Made by a program: the position numbers and the translations under genes. A stretch of DNA of 16,654 nt from Flavobacteriaceae bacterium (GTDB lineage: Bacteria > Bacteroidota > Bacteroidia > Flavobacteriales > Flavobacteriaceae): assembly GCA_002687665.1 (NCBI GenBank), contig NZAX01000010.1, forward strand, positions 3,039 to 19,692, read 5' to 3'. Of the stretch, positions 1-11,479 are shown one piece after another. Positions within the stretch are counted from its first letter, which is position 1, and each line of letters starts with the position of its first letter. Below the pieces are notes generated by a model. The model was not told the DNA's origin, did no database searches, and was given only the letters and a program-made list of their open reading frames with translations.

Positions 1-290
1 CCTATATCAGTTAGGTCCAAGAATCGTTCACCACGAATTAAATCTTCGAGGTACTTATGCATTGCTGTACCTCTAATCGCTGCGTCCCGTGTAATTTTTT
101 GAGCTTCGCGCAATCCGACTCTTTCGCGCCAGCGCTCCAAGCTTTTTATTTTATCTTCAGTCTGAGTTTCACTTAGGATAGTTGTAACACTTGGTAATTT
201 TATCTCATCACCACTAATCGTGTAGTGCCTGAGTCCTTCTATGTTAGCTCTGGAACTTGATGGGTATTTGTACTTATCAATTAATTTCAT
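1..290 (-). CDS. PD-(D/E)XK/MGME1-like phage exonuclease, N-terminal part
   Basis: The first 96 codons of a gene that runs off the left edge. Visible motifs are PSVTTILS (residues 33-40), a Trp-Arg stretch (WRERVG, about 54-59) and RGTAMHKYLED (73-83) with His78 and Glu82. This order is typical of the Cas4/RecB-like exonuclease family that includes mitochondrial MGME1 and many phage recombination or DNA-degradation nucleases. The catalytic D...ExK core lies beyond the window, so activity cannot be judged here. The ATG overlaps the TGA of the upstream dioxygenase gene (ATGA), so translation is probably coupled. The expected role is 5' or 3' end processing of phage or host DNA in recombination and replication. 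Family assignment is fairly secure; the exact function is inferred. Confidence 0.8.
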   Translation of the reverse strand, partial: MKLIDKYKYPSSSRANIEGLRHYTISGDEIKLPSVTTILSETQTEDKIKSLERWRERVGLREAQKITRDAAIRGTAMHKYLEDLIRGERFLDLTDI

Positions 291-1348
291 GGCATCTTGT
301 GAAAAATTTTAGACCATTTGGTCCTGTTGTATTCTGCTTTGCGAACCTCATCGACTCGTTTAAACAATTCGTCCCACGTAATCTCTTCGCCCTCTACATT
401 TATCTTCATAGTCATAGGACCTTGTCCTGGATATAATTTATCTAAGTATCCTGAGCAGCGCCACATTCTACGCATGTCACCTTCATCAACGCTTGTTGGT
501 CGGGCGTGCAATGTAATCGCTTGGTCCATATAACAAACCTCACCGTCTTTCCAATTGTGTGTGTAAATATATTCTGGTTTATCCATTAAAGACCAAATGT
601 GTTTTATATATTTTTTTGATTCATCTACAGACATGCCCAAGAAATAACCAAACAAAGATCCTGGAAAATGTATGCCAGGTACACCGCTTGCAGTTTGGCC
701 TTTCAGTGGCGCTGTCAATCCATCTAAAGGACAACCGTTGTAGCGCATGATGGCGTGTTGCTCTTCTATCAACTCACCTGCAAAGTGATCAAAAACGTTT
801 TTTGAAATCATGTCCCATCTATTAACGCACATCAACTCATCAACCTGAGATCTGTCTTCACAATTTAAATTGTCATAACACTCAGCTGTTGATAGAAAAG
901 TTGTCTGACTGCCTTCACTTGCTTCAACACTTGCAAGACCAACAACTCTTTGTGCAGATTCAAAGCTTGGTTGATCACTGTGCCAACCAAGTTTACCGTT
1001 TGTAAATATACCAAGAGCTCTGCCTTTGTGATCTTTTTGAAAAGTTACTGATTGCATGCGGCTTCTGTGTCTAGGGTCAATCAGTTTACCAATGCGTGCT
1101 GTTGTGTTTCTTACAGCGTTCCAATGCAAACCTTTTAATTTACCAAGACCAATACCTGCAATGACTGGTGACATACCTGGACTGCCCCAGGAATCTAAAA
1201 TATCGTAGTGTCGTTCTTCTGTTAACTTTTGTTTGACAAACACAACTTGTTTGTCTGCAATCAATCTACCCAACTCTGGTATGTGCTCATCACTATTTAT
1301 GTCAAAGTCAAATGCTTCAACAGCGTTTTGTAATTGTTGCACCTTCAT
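287..1348 (-). CDS. TauD/TfdA-like Fe(II)/2-oxoglutarate dioxygenase
   Basis: Predicted non-haem iron, 2-oxoglutarate-dependent dioxygenase of the TauD/TfdA superfamily. Counting from the chosen start, the metal-binding facial triad is His123 and Asp125 in GWHSDQPSF plus a distal His281 in ITLHARPTSV, with Arg294/Arg297 in MRRMWR as the likely 2-oxoglutarate carboxylate anchor. At 353 residues it is somewhat longer than TauD itself, with the extra length mostly before and between the motifs. The start at 1348 is preferred: it overlaps the sulfotransferase stop as ATGA and has AAAGG about 10 bases upstream. An ATG three codons earlier (1357) would leave that AGG only one base away. The substrate is unknown; family members hydroxylate sulfonates, amino acids and non-ribosomal peptide intermediates. 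It lies in a cluster of host-like enzymes and probably acts in the cytoplasm as an auxiliary metabolic or modifying enzyme. Confidence 0.82.
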   Translation of the reverse strand: MKVQQLQNAVEAFDFDINSDEHIPELGRLIADKQVVFVKQKLTEERHYDILDSWGSPGMSPVIAGIGLGKLKGLHWNAVRNTTARIGKLIDPRHRSRMQSVTFQKDHKGRALGIFTNGKLGWHSDQPSFESAQRVVGLASVEASEGSQTTFLSTAECYDNLNCEDRSQVDELMCVNRWDMISKNVFDHFAGELIEEQHAIMRYNGCPLDGLTAPLKGQTASGVPGIHFPGSLFGYFLGMSVDESKKYIKHIWSLMDKPEYIYTHNWKDGEVCYMDQAITLHARPTSVDEGDMRRMWRCSGYLDKLYPGQGPMTMKINVEGEEITWDELFKRVDEVRKAEYNRTKWSKIFHKMP

Positions 1349-2139
1349 CTGTGCCATGCCTTTCTGATGGGAACATCAAATCCCTTATCTAAATATTTAC
1401 TCCAGTCCATTATACCAATCATTTCAAGGACTTCAAAGGGTTTTAAATCTTCAAAATCTTCCATAAAAACGGTCTGACAACGCTTGGGTTTCAGCGCTCG
1501 ATATACCTCCCAAGATCTTTCCATGTCTTGTGTCCACCTATCCAACGTGCCTGGCCCCGGTCCAAACTTCCTTAGTCTTTGTATTTTCTTATCGTCATCT
1601 GGTCCAAAGTGATAGTGTCCTGTAGTCATGGACAGATACAAACTTTTTGTTTGCTTGCGAACATCGCGTCTTTCACAACTAATATAGTCTACATCCCACT
1701 CTGGTTTTGGGTTTGTAAGCAACGGATATTTTAAAAGTAAAGTTTGATTATCTAGAATAGAACTTACAACCATACGTCTTGTTTGTTTTGTAAAATCATC
1801 TTTACCCATTGTTGTGTACATAACGTTGTGCAGCGCACCTCTTTTATGTTCTTTGCCTCTTGCTTTCTGTCTACCTGGTGACCAAACAATTAATCTTTCA
1901 TTATAAAAAACACTGTCAATTACTTCAGGTACTAAAAATTCATTAAGACCTACATATTTTTTATTTTCTAAATCATACTTGCGTTCGTAAATAGAATCAA
2001 AAGATCCTATGCTGTCGTCACCTTCTCGTGCGCGATAGTATCTATCTAGTACCAAGTACAAATATGTTGATCCACACCTTCCGTTGTGAATTATAATTTT
2101 ACTCAAACTGTTGGTTCGTCTTTCTTTTTGCTTCTTCAA
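1345..2139 (-). CDS. sulfotransferase-like protein (PAPS-binding P-loop fold)
   Basis: Resembles the sulfotransferase fold. Near the N-terminus IIIHNGRCGSTYL (residues 15-27) matches the 5'-phosphosulfate-binding loop. SCERRDVRKQTKSLYLS (154-170) matches the 3'-phosphate-binding segment, with Arg158 and Ser166 as candidate ligands. The family moves sulfate from PAPS to carbohydrate, lipid, peptide or small-molecule acceptors; the acceptor here is unknown. No ATG precedes the P-loop. The frame can start at TTG 2139 (264 residues, 41-base overlap with the upstream gene) or at TTG 2106 (253 residues, 8-base overlap). Neither has a convincing ribosome-binding site, but the shorter form fits the tight junctions elsewhere. 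The adjacent TauD-like gene raises the possibility that the two act on one sulfur- or surface-related substrate, which is inference. Confidence 0.68.
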   Translation of the reverse strand: MKKQKERRTNSLSKIIIHNGRCGSTYLYLVLDRYYRAREGDDSIGSFDSIYERKYDLENKKYVGLNEFLVPEVIDSVFYNERLIVWSPGRQKARGKEHKRGALHNVMYTTMGKDDFTKQTRRMVVSSILDNQTLLLKYPLLTNPKPEWDVDYISCERRDVRKQTKSLYLSMTTGHYHFGPDDDKKIQRLRKFGPGPGTLDRWTQDMERSWEVYRALKPKRCQTVFMEDFEDLKPFEVLEMIGIMDWSKYLDKGFDVPIRKAWHR

Positions 2140-2386
2140 TAAATTTCTTTATCATTTTTAATTCTAATTTTAATTCTCTGTTTTCTCTTTTCAAACTACA
2201 AATTAAAGGTAATGTTTTCATATGGTACTCCCACACCGACCAGTTCCAATAATCTGTTTGTTGTTCTAATTGCCTTTCTAAGTTTGCAATATACTGTTCA
2301 TCCGTTTCTACGATATCTTGATTTGATACGTATTTATATTTATGTCCTGTGAATTGTAGAGGACCTGTTACTTTTTTTTGCTGCAT
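2099..2386 (-). CDS. hypothetical protein with C-terminal coiled coil
   Basis: A 95-residue ORF not recognised as any family. The middle is rich in Trp and Tyr (YWNWSVWEYH, about 46-55), followed by a charged, heptad-like helix (about 65-90: SLKRENRELKLELKMIKKF) that is likely to form a coiled coil. The ATG at 2386 has no clear ribosome-binding site. The ORF overlaps the end of the Coq4-like gene by 47 bases, an unusually long overlap for this region, and overlaps the sulfotransferase ORF at its other end. Continuous coding direction and lack of any gap support it as a gene, but the overlaps leave real doubt. Its position suggests co-expression with the enzyme cluster; no function can be assigned. 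Confidence 0.55.
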   Translation of the reverse strand: MQQKKVTGPLQFTGHKYKYVSNQDIVETDEQYIANLERQLEQQTDYWNWSVWEYHMKTLPLICSLKRENRELKLELKMIKKFIEEAKRKTNQQFE

Positions 2387-3146
2387 ATAATTTATATTGT
2401 CTTAGCATTACTCGCCACATCGGAGCGATCTTATGCCAATACTTTGGTTTAATATCTAACTTTAATTCTTTTTTAACTTGTTGTAAATCAACGTTTAAAT
2501 ACTTGTCCCAATCAACCGTCATAAACCACGGTCCTCGCTTCCCCAGGCGCCATCCTTCAACCACTGTTCTACAAAATACGAAAAAAGGATTGTATGCTAT
2601 CAGCATCCAGAGCTTAGTATTGGGTGGATATTTTTCTTTTTGAAATGTATTGCGTATAGCCATAAAGAAAGAGGCATATAGAATAGTGGCAAATGATTCG
2701 CGCCATTCTCTTGCTAGTCCAAAAGACAATACCCCAACTTCACCAAAAGGTGTTGTATCGTAGCCCATAAAAAAATGTATTAGGTCGTGCTCCATTACAG
2801 TGGATTTAAAAAACTTACTAATGTTATTTGCTTTACCTGTACGCGCTTCATAACCAAACTTAAAAAGATCAACCATGTTGTTGTCCTGCATCCATGACTG
2901 AAACTCAGCGCCAAACGTACCTGGCTCAAAGTTACCTGTCTTTATTTTATCTAACACGTGAGTATCACTTGCAAATAATTTTTGTGCTGCTTCTGTTTTA
3001 CAGAAGATAGAATAAATAGTTTTAGTTTCTTTCTTATCTAGCTCGTTAACAAACTTAAATATTATATCTAACGGCGGAGCATTATCAGTTTGAAAGTGGG
3101 TTGCATACTCCCAAGCAAACTTGATTTGTTTCCATCGATGTTTCAT
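2340..3146 (-). CDS. coq4-like: Coq4-family ubiquinone biosynthesis protein
   Basis: A 268-residue protein with the hallmark Coq4 metal motif HDxxH-x11-E: His120, Asp121, His124 and Glu136 in EHDLIHFFMGY...FGEVGVLSF. The upstream segment FEPGTFGAEFQSWMQDNN (about 73-90) corresponds to the conserved PxGTxGxxYxxFlxxN region of the family. Coq4 is a peripheral membrane component of the coenzyme Q biosynthetic complex. It is needed for late ring modification, and recent work implicates it in oxidative decarboxylation of the ring C1. Homologues occur in mitochondria and in some Alphaproteobacteria. The protein has extra C-terminal sequence with aromatic-hydrophobic stretches (about 179-193) that could support membrane association. 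It starts directly after the previous stop (TAA then ATG) with no clear ribosome-binding site, so translational coupling is likely. All four metal-motif residues are intact. A role in host quinone metabolism is inferred. Confidence 0.85.
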   Translation of the reverse strand: MKHRWKQIKFAWEYATHFQTDNAPPLDIIFKFVNELDKKETKTIYSIFCKTEAAQKLFASDTHVLDKIKTGNFEPGTFGAEFQSWMQDNNMVDLFKFGYEARTGKANNISKFFKSTVMEHDLIHFFMGYDTTPFGEVGVLSFGLAREWRESFATILYASFFMAIRNTFQKEKYPPNTKLWMLIAYNPFFVFCRTVVEGWRLGKRGPWFMTVDWDKYLNVDLQQVKKELKLDIKPKYWHKIAPMWRVMLRQYKLYAAKKSNRSSTIHRT

Positions 3147-3833
3147 TTACTTATATATTTTTACCAACCTACATAGTTTAGTAGAAACGTTTTCTATATT
3201 TATTGAATCAGAAGTTATTTTTTTAGTTGCGTTTTTTGACACTGCTGTTCCATTAACATTACATGCTTGTCCAAAAAATATAAAACAATCTGTCCCTTCT
3301 TTTGTTGCAGTGATTGTCGTGCCTGGAGCTACATCTGCTTTTTCAAAAGACCAACCTCCTTCATGCTGCATTGGGCAAAGTATTCTTGTATTTGTTTCTA
3401 AAATTTCTAAAGTTGTTTGATAACAATCGGGTTCATACATCAAAGGAGATTGTTTCCAATCGCATGGTGTATCTCCTAAAGTAGTTGTACCTTCACACCA
3501 ACCAGGACCATCTGAGTATGTAGAGTTATGATACTCTAAGTGTTCATCTAATACTGCTCTGTAATCATCTTTATTTGCGTCAGAAAAATTATCCCCTTCT
3601 TTCCAGTCGTGTCTCAATCTTATTGAGCCTTCAATCAAAAAGTAATTATTATCAGCTCTTAATAAAGAGGGGTAAGTTGGGTGAGGTGAAAATAAAAAAT
3701 TACCTGCTCCATCTTTTGTTCTTTCCTCTCTAGATTCTCTTACTATCATCTGACCAACTTTTGTGGCCCTAGATACAGAGATTTGTATCTTGTTTTCAAA
3801 GTTCTCAACTGTGAAATCCATGTTAAAAATCAT
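3147..3833 (-). CDS. hypothetical protein, Cys-rich, possible beta-rich C-terminal domain
   Basis: A 228-residue protein that I do not recognise. It lacks a signal peptide or membrane segment. The central and C-terminal parts carry several cysteines (in GWCEGTT, TPCDW, PDCYQ, RILCP, TDCFIFFGQAC and TKLCR). The C-terminal third alternates short hydrophobic strands with Gly/Thr turns (APGTTITATKEGTDCFIFFG), suggesting a beta-sandwich or cupin-like fold, but no metal-ligand pattern is evident. The start at 3833 overlaps the preceding stop as ATGA and has AAGGA about 12 bases upstream; an ATG four codons later is possible. It follows a tail-fibre-like gene and one other unknown, so a virion-associated or receptor-related role is possible. 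It directly precedes Coq4, so a role in the enzyme cluster is equally possible. Confidence 0.7.
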   Translation of the reverse strand: MIFNMDFTVENFENKIQISVSRATKVGQMIVRESREERTKDGAGNFLFSPHPTYPSLLRADNNYFLIEGSIRLRHDWKEGDNFSDANKDDYRAVLDEHLEYHNSTYSDGPGWCEGTTTLGDTPCDWKQSPLMYEPDCYQTTLEILETNTRILCPMQHEGGWSFEKADVAPGTTITATKEGTDCFIFFGQACNVNGTAVSKNATKKITSDSINIENVSTKLCRLVKIYK

Positions 3834-4204
3834 AGTGTTTCAGCGTCCTTTGCTTCCACATCTTGCATGCCGTTCGGTTTCAACCATTTTTCTATTTTTT
3901 GTGGATCATCAACTTTTCCTCTTAATACTATAGTTAGTGTTTCTTCATCTACTTTGTATTTTACAGGATCAACATTTAAAATAGTTGCCCATTCTAATAG
4001 ACAGTTGTATTCAAAACCTTTTATGTGTTCATCTGTAAGTATGTTTTTTCGTAAGGCATAAGTTCTAACAGGTAGGTCTGGATTATCTGGAGTCACGACC
4101 ATTGTCATCAGAGTGCTGGTTTTATCTTCACCTGTATCGTCATCTACATAACGCACCACTTCACCAGTGTCTTCGATTTCTTTTTGCCAAGTAATATTAT
4201 ACAT
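3830..4204 (-). CDS. hypothetical protein
   Basis: A 124-residue acidic protein with no recognised domain. The N-terminus is highly acidic (DDDTGEDKT, about 21-29), followed by a probable beta-rich stretch (TLMTMVVTPDNPDLPVRTYAL) and a helical segment with a single cysteine (FEYNCLLEWATIL). No transmembrane segment or signal peptide is visible. Its ATG overlaps the stop of the tail-fibre-like gene as TAATG. Only a distant AAGGG (about 13 bases upstream) could serve as a ribosome-binding site, so translation may depend on coupling. The position just after a tail-fibre-like gene makes a virion accessory or chaperone role conceivable; nothing in the sequence proves it. Confidence 0.68.
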   Translation of the reverse strand: MYNITWQKEIEDTGEVVRYVDDDTGEDKTSTLMTMVVTPDNPDLPVRTYALRKNILTDEHIKGFEYNCLLEWATILNVDPVKYKVDEETLTIVLRGKVDDPQKIEKWLKPNGMQDVEAKDAETL

Positions 4205-4848
4205 TATATGTGACTACCCTTATCCATTTGCATAACATACGACGTACCGGAAACCATGGGTGTAGATGCATTATGACTCGGACCAGCCGGCATTCCAGTA
4301 AGAGCACTAAAGTAACGACCATTTGCAGCTGCACTAGGAGTATTGCCCCATTGTCTGTCAAACAAATAACTCGAGGTTGAAGTATTAACTTGAAATATTT
4401 GATTGTAGTAAGTAGCAGGGTTTACTGATGATCCTGAGCTTGCGTTATCTGCTCTAAAATCACACCTTGTTCCTACTATTAACCAACACTTTAAGTTTGT
4501 ACTAATTTCACTACCACTAGCACCCATTACCATCCCCGCACTAGTAAAAGATCCGATGTTTCCAGTGCTATGTATATTTACACTATCTACTCCAACATAT
4601 GTTTGAGGGGCCTTACCACCAGTAGAAGCTGTTCCAGCAGTAAATTGAGCATATGCTCCTTTACTTCTACCCCCATAAAAATTTGACATAGATATCTGCC
4701 CTGACGTGGGTATATTATTATTTTTAGTAACAGCAATAACAAAACTGCCGCCTCTATAAAACTGACTCATAGATACATTACTAGAAGGCGATCCAAATTC
4801 AGCCCTAACGTCATTCAAAGAAATGCTGCCGCTGCTGGGTAACGTCAT
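4204..4848 (-). CDS. tail-fibre-like virion protein with short N-terminal repeats
   Basis: A 214-residue protein rich in Ser, Gly, Ala, Asn and Thr, with the composition of a phage fibre or appendage protein. The N-terminus carries related units: LPSSGSISLNDVRAEFG (3-19), SNVSMSQFYRGG (23-34) and IPTSGQISMSNFYGG (46-60). The SxSLxDVxxEFG / ISMSxFYGG pattern is familiar from structural proteins of marine phages, where it often marks an attachment or repeat segment followed by a variable tip. The rest (61-214) is beta-rich and unrecognised and may be the exposed tip. The ribosome-binding site is strong: TAGGAG lies six bases before the ATG, and its TAG is also the stop codon of the upstream gene. 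A structural gene here, downstream of enzymes and far from any visible head or tail genes, is notable. Confidence 0.7.
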   Translation of the reverse strand: MTLPSSGSISLNDVRAEFGSPSSNVSMSQFYRGGSFVIAVTKNNNIPTSGQISMSNFYGGRSKGAYAQFTAGTASTGGKAPQTYVGVDSVNIHSTGNIGSFTSAGMVMGASGSEISTNLKCWLIVGTRCDFRADNASSGSSVNPATYYNQIFQVNTSTSSYLFDRQWGNTPSAAANGRYFSALTGMPAGPSHNASTPMVSGTSYVMQMDKGSHI

Positions 4849-4857
4849 GTATAGCTC

Positions 4858-5094
4858 CTATATTAAATGTGGTTTTTTAAAATATATTATTCCATTCTCA
4901 TAGTCAAATTCACATGGATTGCCTATTAGTTCTTCCGGCGTCATAAGGCCCATCCTGGCCCAGTTGGTGTGTCCAAACTTAGCTTTACACAATTTATCTA
5001 TTGTATGTGCCGGTAGATCAGGAAACTTATCTTCAGCCTCGTACGGCGCGCCCGTGTCCTCTGGTATCCAGTCTATTTCAAATTCTTCTGTCAT
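4858..5094 (-). CDS. hypothetical acidic protein, possibly reached by -1 frameshift
   Basis: A 78-residue acidic protein with no recognised family. It has an acidic N-terminus (EEFEIDWIPEDTG), a helical centre containing a single Cys and Trp (DKLCKAKFGHTNWARMG, about 33-49) and a short C-terminal strand (GIIYFKKPHLI). The ATG overlaps the stop of the upstream 31-residue ORF as ATGA. No AGGAG-like site precedes it, only an A-rich tract. The upstream ORF ends in dnaX-type slippery heptamers in the right phase for a -1 shift into this frame, so it may be made as a separate protein by coupling, as a fusion, or both. Its stop TAG forms the first bases of the ribosome-binding site of the following tail-fibre-like gene. 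The function is unknown. Confidence 0.7.
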   Translation of the reverse strand: MTEEFEIDWIPEDTGAPYEAEDKFPDLPAHTIDKLCKAKFGHTNWARMGLMTPEELIGNPCEFDYENGIIYFKKPHLI

Positions 5095-5186
5095 TTCTTT
5101 TTTTTCTTTTTCTTCTTTTTTCGAAAAATACTATCGTAGTTATCCTTAAACTTTTTTGAAGGTATGTGCTTGCCGTCTTGTGCCAT
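5091..5186 (-). CDS. 31-residue basic microprotein with poly-lysine tail
   Basis: A short ORF supported mainly by its junctions. Its ATG overlaps the stop of the upstream TSCPD-like gene as TAATG, and its TGA overlaps the ATG of the next gene as ATGA, so it fills the 91-base gap exactly. The protein begins MAQDGKHIPSKKFKDNYDSI and ends with nine consecutive lysines. It contains no membrane segment or known motif; the tail suggests nucleic-acid or membrane-surface binding, which is inference. The lysine codons form an AAA/AAG tract with A AAA AAG heptamers in the slippery phase at 5115-5121 and 5097-5103. A -1 shift at the first would give a fusion of about 109 residues. The ORF could be a stand-alone microprotein, the N-terminal part of a frameshifted gene, or a gene split by a homopolymer sequencing error. 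Confidence 0.62.
   Translation of the reverse strand: MAQDGKHIPSKKFKDNYDSIFRKKKKKKKKK
5097..5121 (-). promoter_or_regulatory. candidate -1 ribosomal frameshift tract (two A AAA AAG heptamers)
   Basis: In the frame of the 31-residue ORF the codons CGA AAA AAG and AAA AAA AAG place A AAA AAG heptamers (5115-5121 and 5097-5103) exactly as X XXY YYZ. This is the heptamer used by bacterial dnaX. The -1 frame after the site has no stop and runs straight into the 78-residue ORF. No clear Shine-Dalgarno stimulator about 10 bases upstream and no strong stem-loop just downstream was found, so efficient shifting is unproven. Confidence 0.4.
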
Positions 5187-5578
5187 TATTCCCTCATCGC
5201 GTATGGGTCTGTAGACAACTCACGTTGTTTCTTGTCTGGTTGTTTACCCATAATAATATCTTCCATATTCTTGTGCAGGTAGTTTGCCATCTGACCAATC
5301 ACATTGTCTTGAGATAATGTGTCTACCAAATCTTTTAAAGACTCTCCGTGTTGTAAACATCTAGATATCAGCTTGCCTGATGCTCTGAGTTCTCTGTCTA
5401 AATATGAATCTGTTGGTTTTAATTTTATCCAGAAAGCCATAGGTGTAAGTCCAGTCTCACTTGCGGTATAATCTAATATACCTACAACTCGCCTACCATC
5501 AATTGGTAAAGCGAAAGTAGCACTCATCATCCTGTTAGGGATTTCTTTTCTCACCTTGTTCTCCTTAATTAAAGTCAT
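5186..5578 (-). CDS. TSCPD-like small phage protein (tentative)
   Basis: A 130-residue protein. IPNRMMSATFALPIDGRRVVG (about 14-34) and SGKLISRCLQHGESLKDLVDTL (about 67-88), followed by VIGQMANYL, resemble small phage and prophage proteins related to the TSCPD domain at the C-terminus of adenosylcobalamin-dependent ribonucleotide reductases. The conserved feel lies in the IPNR start and the ISxxLQHGxxLxxLVDxL helix. No catalytic residues of a reductase are present, so it is not itself an RNR. It could be a regulatory or nucleotide-binding module, but that is unproven. The start is well supported: GAGGAG lies seven bases before the ATG. It overlaps the end of the upstream membrane-protein gene by 14 bases. 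The family call comes from pattern resemblance only. Confidence 0.5.
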   Translation of the reverse strand: MTLIKENKVRKEIPNRMMSATFALPIDGRRVVGILDYTASETGLTPMAFWIKLKPTDSYLDRELRASGKLISRCLQHGESLKDLVDTLSQDNVIGQMANYLHKNMEDIIMGKQPDKKQRELSTDPYAMRE

Positions 5579-5780
5579 TTCGATGCTCCTCGATAAATTG
5601 GTATAGATAACTATTCGTCTCCTTCACCTGTTGTATCTCTAGCCACATCGTTTCGATAACGGTGTATATATTATATATAGTCACTAAATTTACAATCATT
5701 AATCCCATTGAAATAAATAAAATTGTCCAAGTCAGTACATTACTTGTGGACCAACTTACTTTTACGTTAAAATCTTTCAT
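5565..5780 (-). CDS. small single-pass membrane protein
   Basis: A 71-residue protein with one clear hydrophobic segment, about residues 15-39 (VLTWTILFISMGLMIVNLVT and following), preceded by a short polar N-terminus. A polar, partly helical C-terminus (EIQQVKETNSYLYQFIEEHRNDF) follows. No signal-peptidase site or lipobox is evident, so the helix is probably a membrane anchor. AAAGGAG lies seven bases before the ATG, a strong ribosome-binding site partly within the three-base gap from the upstream stop. Size and layout would suit a holin, spanin-like or superinfection-exclusion protein. No endolysin is visible nearby, so a lysis role is only a possibility. Confidence 0.72.
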   Translation of the reverse strand: MKDFNVKVSWSTSNVLTWTILFISMGLMIVNLVTIYNIYTVIETMWLEIQQVKETNSYLYQFIEEHRNDFN

Positions 5781-5782
5781 AT

Positions 5783-6466
5783 TTATGCTCCTTTAGGCCA
5801 TTTTAATTGTTCAGCAGGTATTCCTATCCAGGGGTTATTCCAGTGATGCCATTCATCATACGGTTTTGGAATATAGTCCCAAGAAGAAAACATTAAACTT
5901 ACTCTAAAGTCTCTTCTTAGCGGATCTATATTTTTAAATTCATTTGTTGCATGATAAATTGGTTTGTTGAAAAATACCAAATGATTTTCTTTTGGTTTTA
6001 CAATAATCATTCTGCTTCCATCCAAAGGCTGATAGTTAGTATCATTAATAGGTCTTCCTTCTACATATGTATTGTTTGGTAGTATTAATAACTCACCACC
6101 TTTCATTTTAGGATCAATACTAATATATAAAATATGTGTGTTTAATGGAAACTGTCTGGCAAATGGAGGTTCTTCAGTACTATCGTTTTCACTTATATAT
6201 TTTTTCATAAATAATTCGTTAGCATCTACGTGCCATAAAGTTGGTTCTTGCCCTCTAGGGTTTCTAATCCAGTACTCTACATGATTATCTTGTCCAATTA
6301 GTTTAACAATGGCTTTTTCAATTTTGTTTCTAGGAGGAACATCTTTAGGTTTAAAATTATAGGTTGGCCAATAATCTGCGTCATCACCAATATACTCTTG
6401 CAGTTCCTCAAAGTCTCTTTGACTTAAAACACTTTTTGCATATTTAATGTGTTCAAGACTTTCCAT
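5783..6466 (-). CDS. prolyl-4-hydroxylase-like 2OG-Fe(II) oxygenase
   Basis: A 227-residue protein with the 2OG-Fe(II) oxygenase signature of the P4H/PhyH type. From this start, His79 and Asp81 lie in LWHVDANE, the distal His172 in IYHATNEF, and Arg188 in FRVSLMF is the likely 2-oxoglutarate anchor. GGELLILPN between them is the usual strand before the distal His. Such genes are frequent in marine phages and are thought to hydroxylate proteins, amino acids or DNA bases; the substrate here is unknown. The ATG at 6466 is preferred: it overlaps the upstream stop as TAATG and has GGAG ten bases upstream. A GTG at 6493 would add nine residues but has no better site. It is unrelated in motif layout to the TauD-like enzyme at 0.3-1.3 kb, so the phage carries two different oxygenase families. 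Confidence 0.83.
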   Translation of the reverse strand: MESLEHIKYAKSVLSQRDFEELQEYIGDDADYWPTYNFKPKDVPPRNKIEKAIVKLIGQDNHVEYWIRNPRGQEPTLWHVDANELFMKKYISENDSTEEPPFARQFPLNTHILYISIDPKMKGGELLILPNNTYVEGRPINDTNYQPLDGSRMIIVKPKENHLVFFNKPIYHATNEFKNIDPLRRDFRVSLMFSSWDYIPKPYDEWHHWNNPWIGIPAEQLKWPKGA

Positions 6467-6678
6467 TATATAGTTTCTCCACTTTTCATCCACCTGGGTT
6501 CTATACCACCTTCAACATTAATACGACATTGCTTGGCTGGCAACCATACTTCACCTTGACTATCACACTGTGGGCAGTTTACCTGGTGTGCACAGCCTGC
6601 TGGCATACGAATATAGCCATTCCCAAAACACCTGGGACAGATGGCCTTAACCTCGTGATCGCCCGTTAGATCTACCAT
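6466..6678 (-). CDS. small zinc-finger protein, DnaJ-type CxxC pairs
   Basis: A 70-residue protein with two CxxC knuckles: CPRCFGNGYI (Cys14, Cys17) and CPQCDSQGEV (Cys35, Cys38). The CxxCxGxG form of the first resembles the zinc-binding repeats of DnaJ, and the pair probably binds one zinc ion; Cys29 and Cys51 are extra. Proteins of this type occur widely in phages as small unannotated genes and may bind nucleic acid or protein. It overlaps the end of the RHH-like gene by 32 bases, and its stop is part of a TAATG junction with the oxygenase gene. The start ATG is preceded only by purine-rich sequence, so translation may be coupled. The function is not known. Confidence 0.7.
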   Translation of the reverse strand: MVDLTGDHEVKAICPRCFGNGYIRMPAGCAHQVNCPQCDSQGEVWLPAKQCRINVEGGIEPRWMKSGETI

Positions 6679-6961: not shown

Positions 6962-7167
6962 TAATTTCTCTTAAAAATATAACTATCTTCTAGATAATTG
7001 AATGTAACTTTACCGTTGACGTGCTGTTTATGCTTTGTTTTGCATGTCATACATTGATATACTCTTTCCTCTTCTTTAGAAACTAGTCTAATAAATGGAA
7101 CATACATTTCGCATTGTTCACAAACACCTAAAGTTATTTCAACAGGACTGTCATTACTGTATGTCAC
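6961..7167 (-). CDS. small zinc-ribbon protein
   Basis: A 68-residue protein with two CxxC pairs, CEQC (Cys16, Cys19) and CMTC (Cys39, Cys42), separated by 19 residues. This is the layout of a single zinc ribbon. It starts with GTG at 7167, supported by AAGGAG nine bases upstream, and overlaps the end of the polymerase gene by 14 bases. The next in-frame ATG lies inside the first knuckle region and would lose it, which supports the GTG. Zinc ribbons of this size occur in phage transcription and replication accessory proteins, but no specific partner can be named. It is the last gene of the replication block before the control region at 6.83-6.96 kb. Confidence 0.7.
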   Translation of the reverse strand: MTYSNDSPVEITLGVCEQCEMYVPFIRLVSKEEERVYQCMTCKTKHKQHVNGKVTFNYLEDSYIFKRN

Positions 7168-9010
7168 CCCAACTATCTCCTTTTTCGTAATCTACTTTGT
7201 TGGGAACTTGTAACGATACAGCTTCTTCCATGACTCTAATAATTTTTTCTGACTCTTGTACGCTCGATACTGAGATATCAAGTTCATCATGAATTTGAAC
7301 ATGTGGTATTACTCCTTCCTGATACAACGCCAACATAGATTTCTTTGTCATGTCAGCAGCTGAACCTTGTATTAGTTTATTTAATGCTTTGTAAGTAAAC
7401 GCACGTTTAATCCCCGGTCCATGCTCCCTGAGTGCGTCTGCGTGTGGTAGTGGTTTCTTGATACCAAAACCATGTGGCTCCCAAAGATCAAAATGACACA
7501 ATCGACCACCGATTGTGCGTATCTTACCACTATCATCAGCTCTACGCGATACAGCTTCTGATAGCATCTTAACAAAAGGTGCTCGCTGGTGATATCTTTT
7601 TATCAACTTTTCAGCAGCATCTTTCATAAGTCCTAGTTCTGCCATGAGTTTATTCTTACCCATGCCATACATTAATCCTAAATTAATTGTTTTTGCTTGT
7701 TTACGCTCAATGCCGGCCATGTCAGCAATCATCTGGTGAAAGTCTGCACTGCCCTCATTATATTGATCTACAATAGTTTGTGTTCCTTCCATGCGCATAA
7801 GAGATGCAAAGTGTACTAGTATTCTAGGTTCTTGTTGACTGTAGTCAAAGCAACCCCAGGTATGTTTTTCTTCTGGTATAAATAAACTTCTAATCAACGG
7901 TCCAAGATGCTTGTGTCTTGCAGGTATCTGCTGGAGATTCGGGTTGTTGTAACTAAATCTACCTGTTACTGTACCGCCTTGATCTGATCGTATTTGATTT
8001 ATTTCAGCGTGTATCCTGCCTTTGTGTTCGTGTTTAAGTATCGTATCGATAAATGTCGTGTTTGCTTTGTTAATCTCTCTTGCTTCGTTAATTAGTTTTG
8101 GTAGCTCTGCTGGGTGTGTTGCAAGAAAGTTTTTTGTAAAGCTGGGTGTGCCTTTTTCTGTCCTGTCGTATGGTAGTTTTACTTTCTCAAACGCCTTTGC
8201 AATAGATGCAGCAGCCCAGATCTCTACATCAAACCCTGCTATTTTATTTATATCCCGTAGTAATTCTTCTTCTGTTTTCTGTAGTTGTGTCTTGACAGAC
8301 ATTGCTTTTGCAATATCAACGCGTACACCTTTAAATTTCATATCAACCAGGCATGGAAACAGCTGTGTTTCTAAATTAAATATGTCCCACAGATCTTGCT
8401 TTGATATTTCATGTTGTAGTGCGTGCCATAACTTCAGTGTCATCTCTGCATCTTTCTCTGCATACTCACCAACAAATGGTGCAGGTAGTCTCCACATCTC
8501 TGCTTTTGGATTGACACCAAAATCTTTTGCAGCTTCCTGTAAAAGTTTTTCGTTCTTGCGCATGTTAATATAATCTTTACCAACAGAGTCTAGTGTATAA
8601 CTAAACCTGTTCTCATCAATCAAACTTGCAGCGATCATTGTGTCAATGATGCCGCCGTTTATATAAAAACCAAGAGAACGTATCCATGACACATCGTACA
8701 TTGCGTTGTGAAATATTTTTGTAGATGTGTTTGACAACAGTTCTTCAAACCAATCCAGGACTAATCCCCGATCCATGTTGCCCCCGCCTTCGTGCGCAAT
8801 AGGAAAATAGCCGGACCAGCCTTCGACCGCAACGGCTATGCCGACTATCTCCCCGTCTCCTCTAACCGCACCCGAGCCCATTGTGAGCAGGTTTGGATCT
8901 CGTGTTTCCAAGTCAATAGCTATCTCACTATAACTGGATAAATCTGGTAATCTGTCTGGTGGTACCCACTCTGTTTCTGGTGTGAAGAGTGGTTGCTGTA
9001 GTGTCCTCAA
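7154..9010 (-). CDS. polA: family A DNA polymerase with 3'-5' proofreading domain
   Basis: Replicative phage DNA polymerase, 618 residues, lacking the 5'-3' nuclease domain of bacterial Pol I. The exonuclease domain has DLET (Asp33, Glu35), HNAMYD (Asn102, Asp106) and YAEKD (Tyr183, Asp187), so proofreading should be active. The polymerase domain has motif A DYSQQEPR (Asp389), motif B RKQAKTINLGLMYG (Arg436, Lys440) and motif C IHDE (His574, Asp575). The residue equivalent to E. coli Phe762 is Leu444; in viral polymerases this position affects nucleotide selection and has been linked to replication style. The start is TTG at 9010, overlapping the upstream stop as TTGA, with AAAGGG eight bases before it. 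A stretch of the exonuclease domain (about 8760-8890) is markedly richer in G/C-ending codons than its surroundings. The gene sits in a replication operon with a helicase and a primase. Confidence 0.97.
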   Translation of the reverse strand: MRTLQQPLFTPETEWVPPDRLPDLSSYSEIAIDLETRDPNLLTMGSGAVRGDGEIVGIAVAVEGWSGYFPIAHEGGGNMDRGLVLDWFEELLSNTSTKIFHNAMYDVSWIRSLGFYINGGIIDTMIAASLIDENRFSYTLDSVGKDYINMRKNEKLLQEAAKDFGVNPKAEMWRLPAPFVGEYAEKDAEMTLKLWHALQHEISKQDLWDIFNLETQLFPCLVDMKFKGVRVDIAKAMSVKTQLQKTEEELLRDINKIAGFDVEIWAAASIAKAFEKVKLPYDRTEKGTPSFTKNFLATHPAELPKLINEAREINKANTTFIDTILKHEHKGRIHAEINQIRSDQGGTVTGRFSYNNPNLQQIPARHKHLGPLIRSLFIPEEKHTWGCFDYSQQEPRILVHFASLMRMEGTQTIVDQYNEGSADFHQMIADMAGIERKQAKTINLGLMYGMGKNKLMAELGLMKDAAEKLIKRYHQRAPFVKMLSEAVSRRADDSGKIRTIGGRLCHFDLWEPHGFGIKKPLPHADALREHGPGIKRAFTYKALNKLIQGSAADMTKKSMLALYQEGVIPHVQIHDELDISVSSVQESEKIIRVMEEAVSLQVPNKVDYEKGDSWGDIQ

Positions 9011-9213: not shown

Positions 9214-9971
9214 CTTCCAACCATTCCTCCTGTAGAATAACTTCTTCGTTCTGGCATTATGTCATCAACTTGATTTGCATAATGTTCTCGTAATTCTCTT
9301 CTTTCATTATATCTTTTTAATATTCTTATACAGTCCTTGATACCAATGTTGTTTTTACGTTTATTGAATTCCCAACAACAAAAAACAATATTATCTATCG
9401 TATACCCTCTTTCAGAATCAAATCGATCTATAGTGCAAAGTGTGTCTGCTCTTAAATTATCGGGATCATAAAAAGTTAAAGGAACACCTGTGTAATAACA
9501 ATTTACACCATACTTTCTAACATGTTCACCCCATAACCATAATAAATCTTCTAGAGTAATTATTGGAACATCTTCATGAATCTTTTTTAACTTTTCTCTT
9601 TTTTTTATGGTGCTCATTTTTGCATTGTACTGACTTACAAAAAACCCTCTCAGGGTTTTTTTATGCTCTCTATCTGTTACTTTTAAACGTTCTCTTTGTT
9701 TTTTAGTTCTTTTTCTTACACCAGGTACAAAAGTTTTCTCACGATGTTTTCTACTGTAAGCTACATCTTTTTCCCTTGCTTCGTCTGATGCATAACGTTT
9801 AACACTAGTTACAGAAATACTAAACATCTTTGCTAAGTCTTTAGTAGGTACTCCGCTTTCCTTTAAGGATCTCAGTTTTGCTATTTGTTTTTCATCAAGT
9901 TTAAAATATTTTTTTGCTTTGGGTAAATATTTATCATATTCACTTGAACGCATTCTCTCTGGTTTTTTCAT
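9210..9971 (-). CDS. HNH-type endonuclease with N-terminal HTH
   Basis: A 253-residue basic protein. Residues about 25-61 (KLDEKQIAKLRSLKESGVP and following) look like a helix-turn-helix of the resolvase/sigma-like kind. A very basic linker (about 74-130) follows. The C-terminal part has the HNH-like pattern CYYTGVPL (158-165), TIDRFDSERGYTIDNIVFCC (180-199) and EFNKRKNN (201-208). The usual first histidine beside the Asp is replaced: Asp182-Arg183 stand where DH is common. Asn194, Asn203 and Lys206 fit the rest of the motif. Similar DR-type HNH proteins occur in phages and are often homing or nicking nucleases. Both junctions are tight (ATGA), with GAAAGGG about ten bases before the ATG, so it is integrated in the replication operon rather than an obvious insertion. 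Confidence 0.72.
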   Translation of the reverse strand: MKKPERMRSSEYDKYLPKAKKYFKLDEKQIAKLRSLKESGVPTKDLAKMFSISVTSVKRYASDEAREKDVAYSRKHREKTFVPGVRKRTKKQRERLKVTDREHKKTLRGFFVSQYNAKMSTIKKREKLKKIHEDVPIITLEDLLWLWGEHVRKYGVNCYYTGVPLTFYDPDNLRADTLCTIDRFDSERGYTIDNIVFCCWEFNKRKNNIGIKDCIRILKRYNERRELREHYANQVDDIMPERRSYSTGGMVGR

Positions 9972-11479
9972 AAAATGTAAGCCCTTTCATAGTTTCTTGG
10001 TTCTAAAATGTGTAATGATTTCTTTGCGCGTGTTACAGCAACATAGAATAGTCTGTGTAATTCATCTGGGTCCATATCATTGTGGTCCATAGCAGACTTA
10101 GTAATATCAGGAAGAACGAGTACATTGTCAGCTTCACCTCCTTTAGCAGCATGTATTGTTGATAGTGTTATTCTTGGTGTCTGTGAAATTTTTTCTCTGT
10201 TGGCTAACATATTTCTTATGTAGTTTTCTGTGTTAGTATCTAGGCCTGCAAACGCTTTGTACCAAACATCGTCAGTTTGTAATCCATGATTATTCATACA
10301 CTCTTCTATGTAATAACCGTCTTCGTTTTCATCCATTGTCTTACCAGTGCGATAACCTTTTGTTACGTTATCACCCAGGTATGAATAAATGTTTTTTATT
10401 GATCCGATTGGTAGTAATGTTTCACTGTTTCTCCATTTCTCCCAAGTTTGTATTGCAAGAAGTAAATCTAATTTGACAGAGTTTTTTGTTTTGTGTGAGT
10501 AGTACCACCCTTGCAGTTCGCAAAACTCTTTGATGTCATCTAAAAAATAATTTGCGCTGGATAAAACTAACCACTCTCCCTGTGACATATCAACCTGTGT
10601 CACGTCAGCATATCTTGTTAAATCACCCATCTCTTGTCTTGGCATGTAGTCTTTATCGTATCTGTTAGAAACAGATCTAATAATCTTTTGTGACATCTCA
10701 TGTATCGGTCCACCGGGTATCCTATAAGATTGATTAAGTGTATCGATGTAATCTACCTCTTCTTTAAGAGCGATAAAAGTATCAACATCAGCGCCAGCCC
10801 ATTTAAATATTGCTTGATCATCATCCCCTGCAATGTAGGTTTTGTTTGCTTTCGCCCAAAGAGTCCGGACCATTCTCCATTGCAAAGGTGAGAGGTCCTG
10901 TGCTTCGTCAATAAATAATACGTCGAAAGATGGTGATACATCTTGTTTAATAAAGTCTTCCAATAAATCATTGTAGTCAAGTAGACCTTTCTCTTTTTTA
11001 TATCTGTTTAGTTCTTGATCTAATAAATACAATAAATCTCTTTCTATGTCCAAACCATGTTGGTTTCTATCGTATAAATCCAGGACAGGCATCTCCAATA
11101 CTCGTGCTTTATTTATAATTCTTAAGTATTCATTGTCAGAATTAAATACACCATCTTCATCACTGTTCCATGCAGTTTTGATTGGTATACCGCATTTCAA
11201 ACCAAAGTCTCTGTAGTCAGAATGCTTCATCATTTTTTCTTTGTTTATACCTAAAGTTCTAAAAGCAAGAGAATGTAGAGTTCTAAAAAAAGGTATCTCT
11301 TTTTGATCAATCATAAACTTTTCTTCTGCCCTGTGTGTCGCTTCCCATGCCGCTTTCTTTGTAAAAGAAAAGTAACCTATCCTTTTTATATCTGTTCCAG
11401 CTCGTAAAAAATCTTCTACCAAATTTAGTAGTGTAGTTGTTTTACCTGTACCAGGTGGGCCTAAAATAATTGTCTTCAC
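9968..11479 (-). CDS. UvrD/Rep-like superfamily 1 DNA helicase
   Basis: A 503-residue SF1 helicase. Motifs in order: Walker A GPPGTGKT (7-14), motif Ia IGYFSFTKKAA (34-44), motif II FIDEAQD (189-195), motif III IAGDDDQAIFKWAGA (216-230), motif IV LNQSYRIP (248-255), motif V STIHAAKGGEADNV (about 440-453) and motif VI YVAVTRAKK (479-487, Arg484 as the arginine finger). All are intact, so ATP-driven 3'-5' translocation is expected by family. No DnaB- or T7 gp4-like helicase is visible, so this may be the main replicative helicase or a recombination helicase. It starts with GTG that overlaps the stop of the primase gene (TAGTG), so the two are probably made in proportion. It is shorter than UvrD (about 720 residues) because its 1B and 2B insertions are small. 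Confidence 0.93.
   Translation of the reverse strand: MKTIILGPPGTGKTTTLLNLVEDFLRAGTDIKRIGYFSFTKKAAWEATHRAEEKFMIDQKEIPFFRTLHSLAFRTLGINKEKMMKHSDYRDFGLKCGIPIKTAWNSDEDGVFNSDNEYLRIINKARVLEMPVLDLYDRNQHGLDIERDLLYLLDQELNRYKKEKGLLDYNDLLEDFIKQDVSPSFDVLFIDEAQDLSPLQWRMVRTLWAKANKTYIAGDDDQAIFKWAGADVDTFIALKEEVDYIDTLNQSYRIPGGPIHEMSQKIIRSVSNRYDKDYMPRQEMGDLTRYADVTQVDMSQGEWLVLSSANYFLDDIKEFCELQGWYYSHKTKNSVKLDLLLAIQTWEKWRNSETLLPIGSIKNIYSYLGDNVTKGYRTGKTMDENEDGYYIEECMNNHGLQTDDVWYKAFAGLDTNTENYIRNMLANREKISQTPRITLSTIHAAKGGEADNVLVLPDITKSAMDHNDMDPDELHRLFYVAVTRAKKSLHILEPRNYERAYIL

Follow-up and report, generated by a model that had tools for sequence, protein, structure and literature searches.

The window analysed here is a stretch of 16,654 nucleotides (positions 3039-19692 of contig C45, which has 19,692 bases and comes from a 1.43 Mb bin), and the gene in question encodes a Coq4-family protein:

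2340..3146, (-) strand: phage Coq4-family gene (cluster c0), 268 amino acids (aa), ATG start, HDxxH-x11-E at residues 120-136

The original prediction had described this gene as a phage-encoded Coq4 and a candidate auxiliary metabolic gene. The Coq4 motif was tested as HDxxH-x10-13-E, following the definition in the available part of PMC9774615. In the window protein, it consisted of H120, D121, H124, and E136 with the spacing HDxxH-x11-E, and the upstream PGTFG region was intact at residues 75-79, as had been predicted for both. The motif was present in all 46 rows of the protein alignment A2. Furthermore, among the 886 open reading frames (ORFs) of 45 loci, HDxxH-x11-E occurred in exactly the 45 coq4-cluster members and in no other ORF, and a chance motif was thus ruled out. 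The profile and structure checks proposed with the prediction also agreed with Coq4: the protein scored 27.3 bits against PF05019 (curated cut-off 22.9), a weak match, and its predicted fold was the Coq4 helical fold in the structure comparison. The identity to the Nostoc Coq4 structures was 14-20%, and residues 235-267 formed a long C-terminal helix. These results support the window gene as a member of a phage Coq4 subfamily.

The spread of this subfamily was examined by several searches. The initial protein search returned 20 proteins, the search from the divergent member L041 returned 38, and the widest, with alignment A2, returned 74; the sequences of 24 proteins from these searches were inspected directly. 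In IMG/VR, 44 viral loci were recovered with an alignment of 18 proteins. PF05019 was matched by 45 of the 46 A2 members at E up to 1, and two family members (P0008 and P0017) had already been named Coq4 by the Joint Genome Institute. The same 18-protein alignment gave 51 pattern matches in 84,980 GTDB species genomes, none of them a relative; this search was limited by its pattern, and within it no close cellular relative turned up that would speak for a recent host-to-phage transfer of coq4. By tblastn against 50,697 named phage records, no match was obtained for the window protein; tblastn against named phages likewise gave none for L041, L032, or the neighbouring gene c1 described below. 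Phage coq4 is under purifying selection: among the 14 pairs listed of 37 at 75-99% identity, the 12 with a synonymous rate (dS) above 0.02 had ratios of nonsynonymous to synonymous rates (dN/dS) of 0.03-0.31.

The region holding coq4 is bordered by two genes:

7154..9010, (-) strand: DNA polymerase A, near the border of the replication block common to phages 023Pt_psg01 and HTVC027P
3..290, (-) strand: c14, exonuclease-like (matches annotated exonucleases), truncated at the window start; the other border of the inserted region

Phage 023Pt_psg01 and Pelagibacter phage HTVC027P were each matched by 14 of the 33 ORFs of the contig. Primase, helicase, polymerase, and exonuclease stood in the same order in the contig and in both phages, and an SNF2-type helicase was also common to all three. 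The stretch between polymerase and exonuclease, with coq4, had just two short weak matches in the two phages (contig 9504-10205), and unlike the window contig, neither phage contained coq4 or c1 in the profile search. In tetranucleotide composition, the contig lay at a distance of 0.148-0.206 from pieces of the two phages, against 0.233-0.296 from ten contigs of the bin; among these ten, the mean distance was 0.196 and the largest 0.42. Moreover, the phage profile searched in 60 genomes had no match besides the binned genome (G000) itself. The synteny with two phages and the 44 viral loci support the location of coq4 on a phage genome. The bin possessed GldK (554.7 bits), which we take to be a mark of Bacteroidota, and menD; COQ7 was found in none of the 26 genomes searched, the bin included, and a ubiA-type match was absent from G000. 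With GldK and menD and no COQ7, the bin looks like a Bacteroidota menaquinone user. The contig is taken as misplaced in this bin, or its host as not established.

In the window, coq4 is part of a recurrent cassette, listed here together with the nearby gene c6:

5783..6493, (-) strand: c6, possible 2-oxoglutarate (2OG)-Fe(II) oxygenase; its score against PF13640 was 17.0 bits, under the cut-off of 27
4204..4848, (-) strand: c3, fibre-like, SSGSISLNDVRAEFG start; phrog_30374, of unknown function; in 29/45 loci
3830..4204, (-) strand: c5, small cassette protein without a family; in 20/45 loci
3147..3833, (-) strand: c1, predicted bicupin-like protein, 228 aa; in 39/45 loci, 38 of them with c1 immediately upstream of coq4
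2099..2386, (-) strand: c2, small protein; in 29/45 loci, 28 of them with c2 immediately downstream of coq4; a look-alike stands behind the desaturase pair

The cassette order was fibre-like c3 (presumably a fibre-like protein, judging by its SSGSISLNDVRAEFG start), small c5, bicupin-like c1, then Coq4 or two desaturases, and c2; phages of two or more kinds carried this cassette. The coupling of coq4 to c1 was tight. In L020, a 2OG-oxygenase-family gene sat between c1 and coq4, and in L022, coq4 was present with no c1 match, the ORF at 1587-2303 being cupin-like by eye with no Pfam match. In addition, a fibre-like SSG start was found upstream of coq4 in 24 of the 45 loci (8 of the other 21 have fewer than three genes upstream), and in 25 of the 508 ORFs above 120 aa overall. 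Clusters of S74 tail-fibre (c4), SU10-type adaptor (c19), and phrog_3287 virion (c13) proteins lay within six genes of coq4 in many loci. BFVD folds had suggested c1 in the cyanophages P-HM1 and P-HM2; by profile it was found in none of four records, in a search without a positive control.

The position of coq4 is exchangeable and was swapped with desaturases. Searching with c1 as the starting point added 40 loci (L054-L093), mostly contigs already found, with 7 new coq4-bearing ones. The gene after c1 was coq4 in 30 of them, a desaturase in 6, and lost at the contig end in 4, a count biased by the use of queries taken from c1 genes that adjoin coq4. Tandem desaturases, about 37% alike, replaced coq4 after c1 (about 4693-6233) in L063, L064, and L066-L069; the second was visible in five of the six loci, since the contig ends in L068. 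In the three loci listed (L064, L066, and L069), look-alikes of c6, c3, c5, c1, and c2 stood in the same order, judged by eye. The tested desaturases scored 45.8-64.6 bits against PF00487, a family found in 3/3 desaturase records and in none of the 34 coq4 records searched (of 44). The six desaturase loci that keep c1 ruled out c1 as an obligate Coq4 partner. Neither this swap, nor c1 as a regular neighbour, nor the strand of coq4 had figured in the original prediction.

Two further genes of the window recurred in the loci:

1345..2139, (-) strand: c11, GRCGST P-loop at its start, no Pfam match; in 14/45 loci
287..1357, (-) strand: c22, TauD/TfdA-family dioxygenase (PF02668; phrog_24590); in 10/45 loci

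The P-loop of c11 recalls, we presume, those of sulfotransferases; L022:2307-2813, near coq4, similarly starts with an SRCGST P-loop and has no Pfam match. Comparable to c22, a taurine catabolism dioxygenase is annotated near the record starts of P-HM1 and P-HM2. For c6, the PHROG label 'DNA endonuclease V' (phrog_274) appears to be mistaken, since the protein more closely resembles a 2OG-Fe(II) oxygenase; its look-alike L064:2047-2727 scored 27.6 bits against PF13640.

The preferred reading is that the phage Coq4 subfamily would be metabolic cargo that occupies an exchangeable position of the cassette, and would act during infection as a metal-dependent, O2-using enzyme on a hydrophobic, membrane-held substrate. 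Desaturases are metal enzymes acting on hydrophobic substrates, and the exchange with them, together with the kept motif and the kept fold, favours such an enzyme. According to the available parts of the sources, the metal in 6E12 is held by the motif residues (PMC9774615), and human COQ4 turns the C1 carboxyl into a hydroxyl in a single oxidative step (PMC11495197, PMC12938788). By analogy with the human protein, the likeliest substrate would be the prenylated 4-hydroxybenzoate precursor of ubiquinone, undergoing oxidative decarboxylation at C1; as the simplest guess from homology, a ubiquinone precursor may be the substrate with a probability of about 45%. The host would be a marine bacterium that uses ubiquinone, for example SAR11; a SAR11-like marine host is suggested because the two syntenic phages come from seawater.

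Several results weigh against this reading. The host was not established, and the bin had GldK and menD without COQ7. The PF05019 match of the window gene was weak, because the search of the whole genome at E 0.001 missed it; L041 reached 21.9 bits, under the cut-off of 22.9, and none of the 38 relatives of L041 carried a precomputed Pfam assignment. Two coq4 pairs with a dS of 0.012, among the 14 listed of 37, had a dN/dS of 0.67. The first desaturase was 99-100% identical across the six loci, so the swap may be one replacement event; the second differed between loci (62%). UbiA, the sole Ubi family tried, was found in none of 37 viral records, many of them fragments. A gene with a purely metabolic role is not usually linked to fibre-like and virion genes, and this fibre-side setting and the low identity to cellular Coq4 speak against a ubiquinone-precursor substrate. 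Accordingly, of the predicted auxiliary metabolic gene, the Coq4 membership and the phage origin stood in the profile, fold, family, and synteny tests, but the claim that infection reshapes host respiration or quinone supply gained no support. The UbiA result, the bicupin-like and often fibre-like neighbours in the cassette, the desaturases replacing coq4 in one lineage, the host not established, and a protein that is no close copy of a solved cellular Coq4 all leave it unsupported.

As the main rival, the protein may be a Coq4-fold enzyme that has left quinone synthesis and, together with c1, targets a phage fibre-like protein or a host envelope lipid for modification or binding, in a virion or attachment module. 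The position of c1 directly before coq4, the fibre, adaptor, and virion clusters nearby, the SSG starts upstream, and the low identity to the Nostoc structures are consistent with it, but c1 persists with desaturases instead of coq4 and so does not need Coq4, the metal motif is wholly kept, and the presence of the protein in virions has no support; we consider it unlikely. About equally unlikely is the proposal that phage Coq4, out of quinone chemistry, might form with c1 a two-gene module that lies near fibre genes and serves to oxidise a lipid or a component of the virion, the slot behind c1 being a general socket for unrelated metal-dependent oxidising enzymes (Coq4, the desaturase pair, and the 2OG-oxygenase-family gene of L020). 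A non-catalytic lipid- or quinone-binding scaffold organising host membrane enzymes, as first proposed for yeast Coq4, is improbable: the available part of PMC11495197 presents Coq4 as a proposed organiser of the coenzyme Q complex, and 6E12 holds oleic acid by its structure title, but the four motif residues are strictly conserved and coq4 is replaced by enzymes. Finally, the alternative that coq4 is not a phage gene, but a gene of the binned bacterium itself or an artefact of binning, is nearly refuted by the syntenic replication block, the 44 viral loci, the phage-profile match in G000 alone, and the nearer tetranucleotide composition of the two phages, despite the Bacteroidota look of the bin and the wide variation of its contigs.

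Compared with cellular Coq4 of PF05019 (Nostoc Alr8543, 6E12; Nostoc punctiforme, 3MSQ; human and yeast COQ4), the phage protein shared the fold, HDxxH-x11-E, (P/E)GT(F/L)G, and an aligned C-terminal region. It differed from 6E12 and 3MSQ in its identity, its own viral subfamily, and the long C-terminal helix, and from cellular Coq4 in its regular partner c1 and in that UbiA was not found in the viral records searched. On the cellular side, the sampling covered 12 loci from cyanobacteria and 3 short homologues. The latter (L049-L051) are PF05019 proteins whose open frames span 173-191 aa, in the genomes G040, G048, and G053 of the same order as the bin; their occurrence in presumed menaquinone users indicates that PF05019 itself need not mean ubiquinone. 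In P0074 (455 aa; E 1e-9, PF05019 + PF00903), which looks cellular and was the sole protein of the 74 with a second Pfam domain, a Coq4 domain with HD..H kept is joined to a glyoxalase/dioxygenase-type PF00903, which may mark a functional connection of Coq4 beyond phages.

Phage lipid desaturases (PF00487) share the slot behind c1 with Coq4 in six loci and differ in belonging to an unrelated family and in being carried as a pair; cyanophage desaturases were reportedly described by Roitman and co-workers in 2018. UbiG is a methyltransferase. Phage ubiG was proposed as a viral quinone auxiliary gene in the available part of PMC9301287; like phage Coq4, it would touch ubiquinone synthesis, but at another step and from another family. 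A survey of viral genes includes a quinone category (PMC10653327, available part). In the literature searched, no description joining Coq4 with phage auxiliary genes and none of the phage Coq4 subfamily was found. With its diversity and its intact metal motif, this viral family offers natural variants for testing the needs of Coq4 chemistry. In addition, the desaturase swap is a hint that chemistry of membrane lipids or of oxygen may be involved when these phages infect their hosts, which are probably marine bacteria.
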